Of a stretch of 10,251 nucleotides of DNA, positions 3,687 to 9,105 are shown piece after piece. Numbering within the stretch: position 1 is the first letter of the stretch; each line of letters begins with the position of its first letter. A model generated the notes under the pieces. The model was not told the DNA's origin and made no database searches. It saw only the letters and a program-made list of their open reading frames with translations. Both the position numbers and the translations under genes were made by a program. The DNA is from Planctomycetota bacterium (lineage in GTDB: Bacteria > Planctomycetota > Phycisphaerae > UBA1845 > PWPN01): assembly GCA_020346805.1 (NCBI GenBank), contig CP070790.1, positions 1,909,733 to 1,919,983 of the forward strand, read 5' to 3'.

Positions 3687-4259
3687 ATGCATGTTGCCAA
3701 CCATCATACCATTGCGGAATTAAAACGTCTGATCCAAAGCGCAAGTGATGCTCGCCAACTCTTACGTTTGCAGGTGGTATTGTTAGCCAAACAAGGACGA
3801 ACCGCGCCCCAGATTGCGGAATCTTTGTTCGTCAGCCGGCGCAACTTGCAGGATTGGGTTTATCGTTACAATGCCCATGGTCTGGAAGGATTGAAGGATC
3901 GACGGCAGGGTGGTAATCAGCGTAAAATCGGCGATGAACAGGAACAGCAAGTGAGGGATTACCTTGACCAGGGACAACTTCCCTCAGGGGGTGTACGTCG
4001 TGGGGAGGATCTGCGGGCGTGGATTCACAAACGTTTTGGTGTTCTCTATAGCCTGCCGGGCACCTATGATTTGTTGCATCGCCTGGGATATAGTTGCCTC
4101 GTACCCCGGCCACGCCACAAGGACGCAGATCCTCAAGTGCAAAGTACTTTTAAAAAAACGCCACGGCTAAGGTCCAGCAAATCGCTCAAGAACACACCAA
4201 GAAACGCATCGAAGTCTGGTTCCAGGACGAAGCCCGATTCGGTCAACAAGGGACCATAA
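3687..4259 (+). CDS. IS630 family transposase, first frame (helix-turn-helix DNA-binding part)
   Basis: 190 residues if translated without frameshifting. Residues ~10-65 form the helix-turn-helix typical of IS630/Tc1-like transposases (AELKRLIQSASDARQLLRLQ, then TAPQIAESLFVSRRNLQDWVYRY). A winged-helix segment follows to about residue 150 (GEDLRAWIHKRFGVLYSLPG, then YDLLHRLGYS). After codon 157 the reading turns into low-similarity Ser/Lys/Arg sequence and stops at 4259, while the family sequence continues in the -1 frame. A very strong AAGGAGG (3674-3680) precedes the ATG. On its own the product would bind ends but could not cut, so it may act as a regulator; that is inference. Confidence 0.8.
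   Translation: MHVANHHTIAELKRLIQSASDARQLLRLQVVLLAKQGRTAPQIAESLFVSRRNLQDWVYRYNAHGLEGLKDRRQGGNQRKIGDEQEQQVRDYLDQGQLPSGGVRRGEDLRAWIHKRFGVLYSLPGTYDLLHRLGYSCLVPRPRHKDADPQVQSTFKKTPRLRSSKSLKNTPRNASKSGSRTKPDSVNKGP
4148..4160 (+). other. Candidate -1 frameshift site (T4A7) in the IS630 transposase
   Basis: The run TTTTAAAAAAACG joins the two transposase frames. In the zero frame it reads TTT AAA AAA ACG. A -1 slip on the second AAA (4155-4157) gives AAC GCC ACG and avoids the TAA at 4151-4153 that blocks the -1 frame upstream. Seven consecutive A residues also allow transcriptional slippage. I saw no strong stem-loop just downstream. The alternative is a simple one-base deletion that inactivated the element. 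Confidence 0.5.
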
Positions 4260-4729
4260 CTCGAAAGTGGGGCCGTACCGGTTCGAGGCCCCCGGCGATT
4301 AAACAAACGCAATATGACTGGTTGTATGTGCTCGGTGCGGCCTGTCCGGAAACCGGCCAGACCGTAGGCCTCATCTCCCCACACGTCAACACGGAAGTGA
4401 TGAACACCTTCCTTGATCAATTCGCCAAACAGATTGATCCTGAGGTACATGCGGTCATGATCTGGGATCAGGCTGGTTACCACGGAGGCAGAAACCTAAA
4501 AATCCCTGATAACATAGATATCATACCCCTACCACCATATTCCCCGGAACTCAATCCTGTCGAAAATCTATGGCATTACTTGCGGAGTCACTACTGGTCC
4601 AATCGGATATACGAGGATTACAACGAATTGGCCGATGCAGTTTGCGAGTCATGGCAAGCAACCTGTTTGGAACCCGAACTGGTTAAAACTGTTTGCCGGG
4701 CATCTTATATCAAAACGCGCGAGGTGTAA
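4154..4729 (+). CDS. IS630 family transposase, second frame (DDE catalytic domain), likely expressed as a -1 frameshift fusion
   Basis: The -1 frame is open from 4154 to the TAA at 4727-4729. It holds all three acidic residues of the DDE_3 domain: Asp in VWFQDEARFG (codon 4226-4228), Asp in VMIWDQAGYHGG (4466-4468) and Glu in LNPVENLWHYLR (4562-4564). That leaves 31 residues between the last two. The first possible start codon in this frame is a TTG at 4322, after the first catalytic Asp, and it has no convincing ribosome binding site, so this part cannot make a complete catalytic domain alone. Joined at the A7 run, the fusion would be 347 residues, the normal size for the family, with catalytic residues at 181, 261 and 293. 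Confidence 0.75.
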   Translation, partial: KNATAKVQQIAQEHTKKRIEVWFQDEARFGQQGTITRKWGRTGSRPPAIKQTQYDWLYVLGAACPETGQTVGLISPHVNTEVMNTFLDQFAKQIDPEVHAVMIWDQAGYHGGRNLKIPDNIDIIPLPPYSPELNPVENLWHYLRSHYWSNRIYEDYNELADAVCESWQATCLEPELVKTVCRASYIKTREV

Positions 4730-7215: not shown

Positions 7216-7566
7216 CTGATCATAAAACCTCACCGTAAGCCCAGGGCACCATGTCATCGTGAAATGACCACCATACTGCTGAATGCAGTCAGGCTGCCTC
7301 CTCGCACTCCTAGTACAATTGAGTCTACAAATTCCGGCCAATTATCGCAAGAGGACATTTAATATCCATCTTACCGGGCCGAAAACAAGGTTTTAGCACC
7401 AAAGATTATATAATTTCGGCCACCAAATCAGCCCCCGGATTCGGTAGATTCTCGACATACAGGTCAATGTATAAGTCTGGCGTTCAAATTGATAAATTTT
7501 CCATATAATTGTCAATTATACCATGGGCCAACTCACAGGGGGGCAATAAATAAAGACAATTCTTTT
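7216..7566. other. Divergent intergenic region between the FHA and parA genes
   Basis: About 350 bp without a gene, AT-rich in its middle. It holds a symmetric ATTATATAAT (7405-7414) that could give a -10 on either strand, but no good -35 on either side. It also holds an 8-bp inverted repeat GGCCGAAA/TTTCGGCC (7377-7384, 7414-7421) around that site, and the 17-bp palindrome listed separately. The FHA promoter is probably here but I cannot place it. Confidence 0.3.
7504..7520. promoter_or_regulatory. Perfect 17-bp palindrome, candidate operator
   Basis: TATAATTG-T-CAATTATA has 8-bp arms around one central base, with no mismatch. It lies about 50 bp upstream of the predicted parA promoter, between two divergent genes. 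Such odd-centred AT-rich palindromes are often dimeric regulator sites. No regulator gene is adjacent, and AT-rich sequence raises the chance of coincidence. Confidence 0.35.
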
Positions 7567-7594
7567 TTGCATCATCGGATGCGGTCTATATAAT
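7567..7594 (+). promoter_or_regulatory. Predicted promoter of the parA-like gene
   Basis: A consensus TATAAT lies at 7589-7594. The best -35 is TTGCAT (7567-7572) with a 16-nt spacer, which matches only the first three consensus bases. A small GCATC/GATGC hairpin (7569-7582) overlaps the spacer. Transcription would start near 7601, right at the beginning of the structured leader. Confidence 0.45.
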
Positions 7595-7600
7595 GATAAT

Positions 7601-7712
7601 ACCTGAAAACCACAAGCAGGGCACGAGGCCCGGCAGGCCGATGGAGCCAAGACCATACGGTTAAGCCGGCATATCTCAGGCAGAGTCGGCTCCCATCGGG
7701 AAAGGAGGTCCG
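7601..7712 (+). promoter_or_regulatory. Structured parA leader with mutually exclusive stems, candidate translational riboswitch or other RNA switch
   Basis: A long stem joins CCGATGGAGCC (7638-7648) to GGCTCCCATCGG (7688-7699): 11 pairs with one bulged base. It encloses 39 nt that can form small hairpins (ACC-ATAC-GGT near 7652-7661; CTC-AGGCA-GAG near 7676-7686). Further 5', GGGC/GCCC near 7618-7631 can pair. The Shine-Dalgarno GGAGG (7704-7708) follows the stem at once. The 3' arm bases CATCGGG (7694-7700) can instead pair with TCCGATG (7709-7715), which includes the start codon, giving a 7-bp stem (one G-U) whose 8-nt loop is the Shine-Dalgarno itself. The two folds share 7694-7699 and exclude each other. 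I do not see the conserved bases of the cyclic-di-GMP-I, TPP, cobalamin, glycine or fluoride classes. Confidence 0.5.
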
Positions 7713-8864
7713 ATGCGACGCATTACCATCATCAACCAAAAAGGTGGCGTAGGTAAAACCACCACCGCAGTCAACGTGGGCATGGCATTGGCTCGGCTGG
7801 GTCAGCGGGTCCTGTTGATCGATCTGGATCCCCAGGCCCATCTGACCATGCACCTGGGGCTGGACCCCGCCGATGACACGCCGGGCACCTACGAGATGCT
7901 CACCGCATCGGCGACTATCGCCAAGGTTCGCCGCAAAGTCAGCGACAACCTTTGGGTGGTAGGTTCCAGTATCGATCTGGCGGCGGCGGAAATTGAACTG
8001 GTCAGCGTGGTTGGTCGGGAAGTCATTCTCCGCGACGCCCTCGATCAGCATTTAGGCCAGGACAATAAAAACCACCGACAAAAATACGATTATATCCTGA
8101 TAGATTGCCCGCCCTCACTGGGGGTTCTGACTTTGAATGGACTTTGTGCCGCCCATGAAGTTTTTATACCCCTTCAGCCTCACTATCTGGCCCTGCAGGG
8201 ATTGGGTAAGTTAGTGGAAACCGTTTTGTTGGTAACTAAGCGTATCAATCCCTCGTTGAAAGTAAGCGGAGTGATGGTGTGTATGCATGACACAGGTACC
8301 AGGTTGGCGGCCGAGGTAATCGAGGACGTGCGTTCGTTTTTCGAAAAAGCACGTGGGACTAATGTTCCCTGGGCGTCGGCCCAGCTATTTGAAACACTTA
8401 TTCGCAGGAATATCAAGTTGGCCGAGGCCCCGAGCCACGGCAAAACCATCTTCGATTATGCCCCGGACAGCAACGGGGCAAAAGATTACGAACGACTAAG
8501 TCTGGAAATACACGATCCGATTGTTTTTCATGAACGAATAAGCGAACCCAACGTCCCGGCAAAGAAAGACGACAAAATCGAAAGCGAGAAATCAAGCAAC
8601 GAGGTGCAAACCGATAATGAGATAGATTCAGCACTTGCCGAACCGATAAAGGCCGAACCGGCCAAGGTTGCCGCCGACAAGCACCTAAAGAGCATAAATA
8701 AAACCAAACAACATCGTGATAAAAAACAAACCAAGGCACCGGCGGCAAATAAAGAACCTGAAGCAAGACCGTCAACTGAACCTCTTACCTCGACCACGCC
8801 AACACCAGTACCAGAATCGACACCAAAAAACGTTGTCGAGCCGCCAATAATTCAATCAGTTTAA
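7713..8864 (+). CDS. ParA/Soj-family ATPase with disordered C-terminal extension
   Basis: 383 residues. The first ~265 are a complete ParA/MinD-like ATPase: deviant Walker A KGGVGKTT (10-17), switch I region LLIDLDPQAH (34-43), Walker B YILIDCPPS (127-135), then LTLNGLCAAHEVFIPLQPHYLALQG in two blocks and the C-terminal RRNIKLAEAPSHGKTIFDY (231-249), which is typical of chromosomal Soj proteins rather than MinD. Residues ~271-383 are Lys/Glu/Pro/Ala/Thr-rich and low in hydrophobics, so probably disordered; most ParA proteins end near 260. The family positions DNA or large complexes by ATP-driven gradients. No parB or parS-like site is seen here, so it is an orphan by context and its cargo is unknown. 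The start is fixed by AAAGGAGG just upstream. Translation may be controlled by the leader. Confidence 0.85.
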   Translation: MRRITIINQKGGVGKTTTAVNVGMALARLGQRVLLIDLDPQAHLTMHLGLDPADDTPGTYEMLTASATIAKVRRKVSDNLWVVGSSIDLAAAEIELVSVVGREVILRDALDQHLGQDNKNHRQKYDYILIDCPPSLGVLTLNGLCAAHEVFIPLQPHYLALQGLGKLVETVLLVTKRINPSLKVSGVMVCMHDTGTRLAAEVIEDVRSFFEKARGTNVPWASAQLFETLIRRNIKLAEAPSHGKTIFDYAPDSNGAKDYERLSLEIHDPIVFHERISEPNVPAKKDDKIESEKSSNEVQTDNEIDSALAEPIKAEPAKVAADKHLKSINKTKQHRDKKQTKAPAANKEPEARPSTEPLTSTTPTPVPESTPKNVVEPPIIQSV

Positions 8865-8992: not shown

Positions 8993-9105
8993 GCGTATTA
9001 TACGAATTCCACTTCAAACATACGCTAAGAGAGCGGGTCAGGCACAATATTCCTTTGGAATAATTGAGCCAGACCCAGCACACGTTTGAATTGGAATCCT
9101 TATTA
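8993..9105. repeat. Imperfect palindromic repeat (MITE- or REP-like), inverted arm plus copy B
   Basis: The inner arms GGGTCAGGCACAATATTCC (9035-9053) and GGAATAATTGAGCCAGACCC (9057-9076) pair at 17 of 19 positions with one bulge, around a 3-nt TTT loop. Outer arms are also related: 8996-9019 reversed matches 9084-9107 at 19 of 24 positions. The right half (9060-9105) matches copy A at 4741-4786 at 42 of 46. The left arm carries about 6 bp absent from the right. No ORF is inside. This fits a small non-autonomous palindromic element; its mobilising enzyme is not in the window. Confidence 0.65.

Follow-up and report, generated by a model that had tools for sequence, protein, structure and literature searches.

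The leader of an orphan parA gene in the window, the 10,251-nt stretch of DNA analyzed here, is probably a CsrA-type translational operator, a known kind of element at an unusual target. Among the possibilities raised by the earlier note on this DNA, that of a protein-binding leader fits best with the GGA loops, the conservation and the covariation of two hairpins, H1 and H2. An arrangement of two GGA-loop hairpins, one of them over the Shine–Dalgarno (SD) sequence, is the architecture of the CsrA-repressed leaders of glgC and Campylobacter flaA.

The Shine–Dalgarno hairpin and its conservation

Hairpin H2 (7694..7715, forward strand), identified by scans, conservation and covariation, has a stem of seven pairs between 7694-7700 and 7709-7715. 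The earlier note had described CATCGGG (7694-7700) as complementary to TCCGATG (7709-7715) around AAAGGAGG, and all coordinates check, with the parA start codon ATG at 7713. It had also considered both the start codon and the SD sequence to be sequestered, which is correct for the former, located in the H2 stem, and incorrect for the latter, AAAGGAGG (7701..7708, forward strand) being the unpaired H2 loop and containing A-A-GGA-G, a form of the ANGGAN signature. CsrA sites have this geometry, with the SD in the loop and the start codon in the stem, and typical thermosensors do not.

In the window sequence by itself, H2 and a longer alternative stem described below stand out only weakly and neither is far beyond chance. 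H2 alone has a predicted energy of -7.6 kcal/mol, equaled in 55 of 2,000 shuffles of its arms with the SD kept, and the fold of the whole leader has a z score of -1.31, with 21 of 200 shuffles folding as well. With a transcript start at 7601 or 7619, H2 is also predicted to be a minority fold, formed in 5–33% of molecules. It is by conservation that the short hairpin rises above chance. We compared 56 orthologous parA leaders, drawn from the window's own family f1 (11 of 13 genomes) and a second family of the order, f8 (46 of 51 genomes, 45 usable), and found them to be unalignable except for two blocks, H1 and H2. The H2 block keeps a constant position relative to the start codon (TCGGnAAnGGAGGnCCG-ATG) and its conserved core in the alignment of leaders corresponds to 7696-7700 with 7709-7713 on the forward strand; strict CGG/CCG arms are present in 28 of the 56 leaders and in both families. 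Across all 56, 66.1% of the H2 cells pair in comparison with 57.8% after shuffling (reached by 0 of 500 shuffles), and the covariation score was reached by 1 of 500.

As related sequences inflate such pairing counts, we simulated columns evolving independently along a ParA tree and applied this tree-aware test to the 28 leaders that had been chosen only for their CGG/CCG arms. In the simulations, covariation at the closing pair -13:-4 averaged 0.18, and none of 3,000 runs reached the observed 0.83. The pair ranks first of 25 column pairs by covariation and forms in 24 of the 28 leaders, a number reached by 7 of 3,000 simulations. The variants seen are U–A, G–U, A–U and U–G, and the tree requires at least seven changes in column -13 and at least five in column -4. 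Compensatory changes in the short stem among homologues, which had been named beforehand as a check, are therefore present at this pair, and H2 is, on this comparative evidence, to be regarded as a real, conserved and cis-acting RNA hairpin.

The loop is as distinctive as the stem. A GGA in a loop of 5–8 nt with a stem score of at least 4 was found in 31 of the 56 parA leaders, against a mean of 9.6 and a maximum of 17 when the flanks were shuffled. The signature in the H2 loop has A in 27 of 28 leaders, followed by a free N (15 A, 12 G and 1 T) and then by GGA, the conservation of which is owed partly to the Shine–Dalgarno sequence itself. The flagellin leaders of the order (L185-L214), flagellin being the classical target of CsrA, have a similar element: 25 of 30 contain a GGA-loop SD hairpin with a stem score of at least 4, the signature being A(29/30)-N-GGA, while the stems vary (CAATC/GATTG, CATC/GATG and GTTC/GAAC). 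This hairpin with an ANGGAG loop is likely a CsrA operator of the order's flagellin genes, which, by analogy with other bacteria, would be CsrA targets here as well. The two sets differ in the closing of the loop: the parA H2 loop is mostly of eight bases and has A.G in 22 of 28 cases where the flagellin leaders close with C–G, and the exact ANGGAN hexaloop with a stem of at least 3 is found in 8 of 56 parA leaders vs. 21 of 30 flagellin leaders. In two negative controls, groEL and rpsL, the GGA-loop hairpin was present in 2 of 26 leaders each, together 4 of 52 in comparison with 31 of 56 for parA, counts that ignore relatedness and come from control genomes with a different mix of families.

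Within the window's own genome, the exact H2 pattern is found once, at parA; allowing two mismatches gave 13 further hits vs. 3 for a reversed control pattern. A search of 114 genomes of the order with a covariance model of the leader, R1, gave 39 matching sites in 36 genomes at E ≤ 0.05. The 26 top-scoring sites are all at parA, 20 of them being training sequences and 6 independent; one training genome (G051) does not appear among the listed matches. None of the 13 lower-scoring sites coincides with a known parA, and we inspected four of these loci (L181-L184). The first of them, L181 (G015:C2:635554-635650), has a perfect SD hairpin, TCGGAC-AAGGAG-GTCCGA, at a non-parA gene that by eye encodes a lipoprotein with a metallopeptidase-like HEGLH stretch; judged from this hairpin, the gene is possibly another CsrA target. 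The R1 model and, as an internal comparison, the flagellin leaders would be tools for testing CsrA targets in the group.

The upstream hairpin and a probable promoter

Hairpin H1 (7619..7631, forward strand; GGGC-ACGAG-GCCC) is seen in alignments A3 and A4, in pair counts and in the predicted fold. It is the homologue of the GGC-AGGAK-GCC hairpin of the relatives, most of which have AGGAG or AGGAU in the loop where they have H1, but in the window CGA replaces GGA and the equivalent of the CAGGANG motif reads CACGAGG. The strict motif is present in 19 of the 56 leaders, between -95 and -26; as controls, the reverse complement gave 2, the stretch -160..-96 gave 1, and shuffled sets averaged 1.3 with a maximum of 6. 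Where the H2 arms are strict (28 leaders), the motif is found in 17, and among the 31 leaders passing the H2 score in only 15. GGA is present in 19 of 23 H1-like hairpins, the window being among the four without it. The third pair of H1 is G–C, G–U, U–G or U–A, though sliding the hairpin by one column yields an equal covariation score and alignment A3 consists of sequences chosen for a motif that fixes two of the H1 pairs; the pairing of H1 appears less well supported than that of H2.

In 20 relatives, 32–64 nt separate the GGA positions of the two blocks; in the window, the separation is 77 nt. A hairpin scan identified a further hairpin specific to the window, GGC-CGATGGA-GCC (7636..7648, forward strand), with a GGA at 7643-7645 that is not homologous to that of H1 and possibly substitutes for the one lost there. 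As its upstream loop has CGA instead of GGA, the operator looks partly decayed in the window, and CsrA binding would be expected to be weaker or to take place via the GGA at 7643-7645. Counted against a CsrA operator are this CGA, the 25 of 56 leaders that fail the H2 score, the 37 of 56 without a strict CAGGANG, the mostly eight-base H2 loop with its A.G and the minority share of H2 among the predicted folds of the window leader. With a leader peptide and attenuation in mind, we looked by eye for a start codon or reading frame shared by the parA leaders after H1 and found none.

Upstream of the hairpins, a pattern scan found a sigma-70-like promoter, TTTGCA-17-TATAAT (7566..7594, forward strand), with 10 of 12 consensus matches; one such site was found against 0.5 expected in shuffles. 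The earlier note had pointed to a TATAAT at 7589-7594 that would start the RNA at the 5′ edge of the structure, and this hexamer indeed has the context of a -10 element, with a -35 element TTTGCA across a 17-nt spacer. The RNA is expected to start near 7601. Among the leaders listed, the gap from the end of a -10-like hexamer (loose pattern) to the H1 loop is 18–33 nt in 20 of 21 and 42 nt in the remaining one. Two repeats lie close to these sites. At 7569-7582, just upstream of the -10 element, an inverted repeat GCATC-ATCG-GATGC, repeating CATCGGATG, is possibly an operator; 6 of the 56 leaders (L011, L037, L109, L112, L113 and L118) have a palindrome, CGTCGACG, just 5′ of H1, close to where transcription is expected to start.

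A different arrangement is found in family f4, where TATAMT (TATACT) ends 6–7 nt before the parA ATG in 13 of 14 orthologues (L039, L041, L042, L045-L048, L050, L051 and L053-L056). From their sequence, the parA mRNAs of these 13 look leaderless and, being leaderless, could not carry an operator of H1 and H2. Families with a leader and families with leaderless parA would then provide a natural experiment on the loss of such control.

Proposed CsrA control and competing explanations

CsrA sites, as described in PMC7652899, have GGA in hairpin loops and ANGGAN as a hexaloop; the same review gives CAGGA(U/A/C)G in hairpin loops as the CsrB-type repeat and describes how, on the E. coli glgC leader, a dimer bridges two CsrA sites, the SD and the loop of an upstream hairpin. 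The parA leader resembles glgC in combining an SD site with a site in an upstream hairpin loop (PMC7652899) and differs from it in that a conserved hairpin forms the SD site as well, in another gene and another phylum. The H1 of the relatives resembles the CsrB repeat, with CAGGAG/UG in a GGC/GCC-like hairpin, but is present as a single copy in an mRNA leader and often has G where CsrB has U, A or C. In Campylobacter jejuni, the sections on the flaA leader in PMC4894983 report two ANGGA stem-loops, the second over the ribosome-binding site, with CsrA binding demonstrated by mutation and footprint and the stem-loops supported by compensatory changes; a change of GGA to UGA in the first, SL1, weakens CsrA binding (PMC4894983). 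The parA leader shares with this CsrA–FliW system two stem-loops, both with GGA in most relatives that have H1, the second lying over the ribosome-binding site, as well as compensatory changes and the presence of CsrA and FliW, the latter here as a fliW-like gene. The target in flaA is a flagellin and here an orphan ParA; the GGA spacing in flaA is 21 nt (PMC4894983), below the 32–64 nt of the relatives and the 77 nt of the window; and the parA SD loop, a putative CsrA site, is mostly of eight bases. Extra loop bases lower the affinity of RsmE. Among titles and opening lines of abstracts, we found neither a CsrA–ParA leader nor a paper on the CsrA regulon in this group, probably Phycisphaerae; PMC8544851 links parAB expression to another plasmid gene being disrupted rather than to a CsrA leader.

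CsrA (PF02599) is present in 60 of 61 genomes, that of the window included, and its distribution is no test of the model because nearly all genomes have it. The CsrA of the window's genome scores above the cut-offs of the NCBIfam csrA models and keeps the RNA-binding residues L4 and R44. Its gene adjoins a fliW-like gene (L146:1017-1973), which falls short of the curated cut-offs of the FliW models. No flagellin was found in the same genome, which is rated 72.75% complete, so its absence is not claimed, and the 3.3 kb around csrA, a stretch that holds a gap of 100 N, contains no convincing flagellin remnant (best E 0.038). The gap lies 840 bases downstream of the pair of fliW-like gene and csrA.

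Under CsrA control, the transcript starting near 7601 would expose H1 and H2, the latter presenting the SD in its loop and the start codon in its stem. By binding both GGA loops at once, a CsrA dimer would bridge the two hairpins, cover the SD and block translation initiation, as on glgC and flaA. Free FliW could then release the parA mRNA from CsrA and allow its translation.

SD hairpins are able to tune translation without any protein, and the leader may have no regulator at all, H1 being a ribosome standby site and H2 a mild SD hairpin that together set a low constant dose of ParA. The apparent lack of a leader in 13 of 14 f4 orthologues agrees with such a role, but two conserved blocks are more than constant dosing would need, H1 retains its GGA (19 of 56) at a place where no SD is required, and the A-N-GGA signature is common to the flagellin leaders; we consider this explanation unlikely.

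The earlier note proposed a two-state RNA switch. As a riboswitch or thermosensor, the leader would have an 11-pair stem and the start-codon hairpin as competing folds, the choice between them being set by a ligand or by temperature. The stem is present between CCGATGGAGCC (7638..7648, forward strand) and 7688..7699 (forward strand), which overlaps the 5′ arm of H2, with the correction that the right arm has one bulged C, giving 11 pairs over 11 + 12 bases. Both arms come from folding and neither is conserved. The duplex has a predicted energy of -20.8 kcal/mol, and after dinucleotide shuffling of the upstream part, an equally good pairing was reached in 24 of 1,000 cases. The energy comparison that the note had proposed puts the two folds within 1 kcal/mol of each other, -41.7 kcal/mol with the long stem forced and -40.9 kcal/mol with the short hairpin forced on 7601-7730, and about 52–66% of transcripts starting at 7601 or 7619 are predicted to form the long stem in its outer part. 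Two near-isoenergetic stems would suit a switch, but the relatives do not share the arrangement: pairing against the 5′ arm of H2 at P ≤ 0.05 was found in 3 of 56 leaders, the window included, which is no better than shuffles, and we dropped the two-state switch on this result. As far as the data go, the long stem appears private to the window among the relatives compared, the nearest of which belong to other genera. The 39 enclosed nucleotides had been suggested as a ligand or protein site; the bases between H1 and H2 are unalignable and no conserved ligand pocket is seen. A metabolite riboswitch would have a conserved ligand-binding core between helices, and here only H1 and H2 align. A thermosensor would have the SD paired in a conserved structure, and here it is the unpaired H2 loop. 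The statement that the leader matches no known class stands: Rfam searches of the window, of 7560-7760 with lax filters and of nine parA leader loci gave only chance-level matches at the leaders. Taken together, we regard a switch as very improbable. The scan of the leader loci also found a tRNA elsewhere in L174.

Least probable, by a little, is that another RNA-binding protein or a small RNA recognizes both loops: 4 of 23 H1-like hairpins lack GGA yet keep the stem and two loop A's, and A.G stands in the parA loop at the place of the flagellin C–G, but CsrA is present and 19 of the 23 do have GGA.

The ParA protein, its neighborhood and wider meaning

The gene behind the leader (7713..8864, forward strand) was identified by profile match and orthologue searches as encoding an orphan ParA ATPase. 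Its product matches Pfam AAA_31 (E 4.5e-53) and has the Walker A motif KGGVGKT of the P-loop ParA fold, as QKGGVGKTTT near the N terminus. It resembles the Soj/ParA chromosome-partition ATPases, matching PDB chains 8ray_B (E 3e-52) and 1wcv_1 (E 4e-46), and differs from those systems in that no ParB was found among the eight window proteins tested. A second ParA, 38% identical, is encoded elsewhere in the same genome. Some ParA match was found in all 61 genomes searched, that of the window included, and one better than 1e-60 in 56 of them.

If the leader is a CsrA operator, CsrA control extends to a ParA ATPase and to this group, probably Phycisphaerae. A tentative extension is that the flagellin–FliW–CsrA checkpoint also sets ParA synthesis, with f4 having cut the link through leaderless parA and the link in the window decaying or having moved to the GGA at 7643-7645. 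On this model, once flagellin is exported, FliW would bind CsrA and both flagellin and ParA would be made, tying the assembly of the flagellum to the placement of the chromosome or other cargo; the GGA at 7643-7645 would be buried by the long stem and freed by the H2 fold.

Behind parA, a convergent hybrid histidine kinase gene is kept, by eye, in at least two f1 relatives (L003 and L004). A long hairpin between the two convergent genes (9026-9086), which surfaced as a chance match to mir-425, is perhaps their shared terminator. Elsewhere in the window (3687-4729), a transposase that we take to be IS630-like is spread over two open reading frames, one with the HTH part and one with the DDE part.
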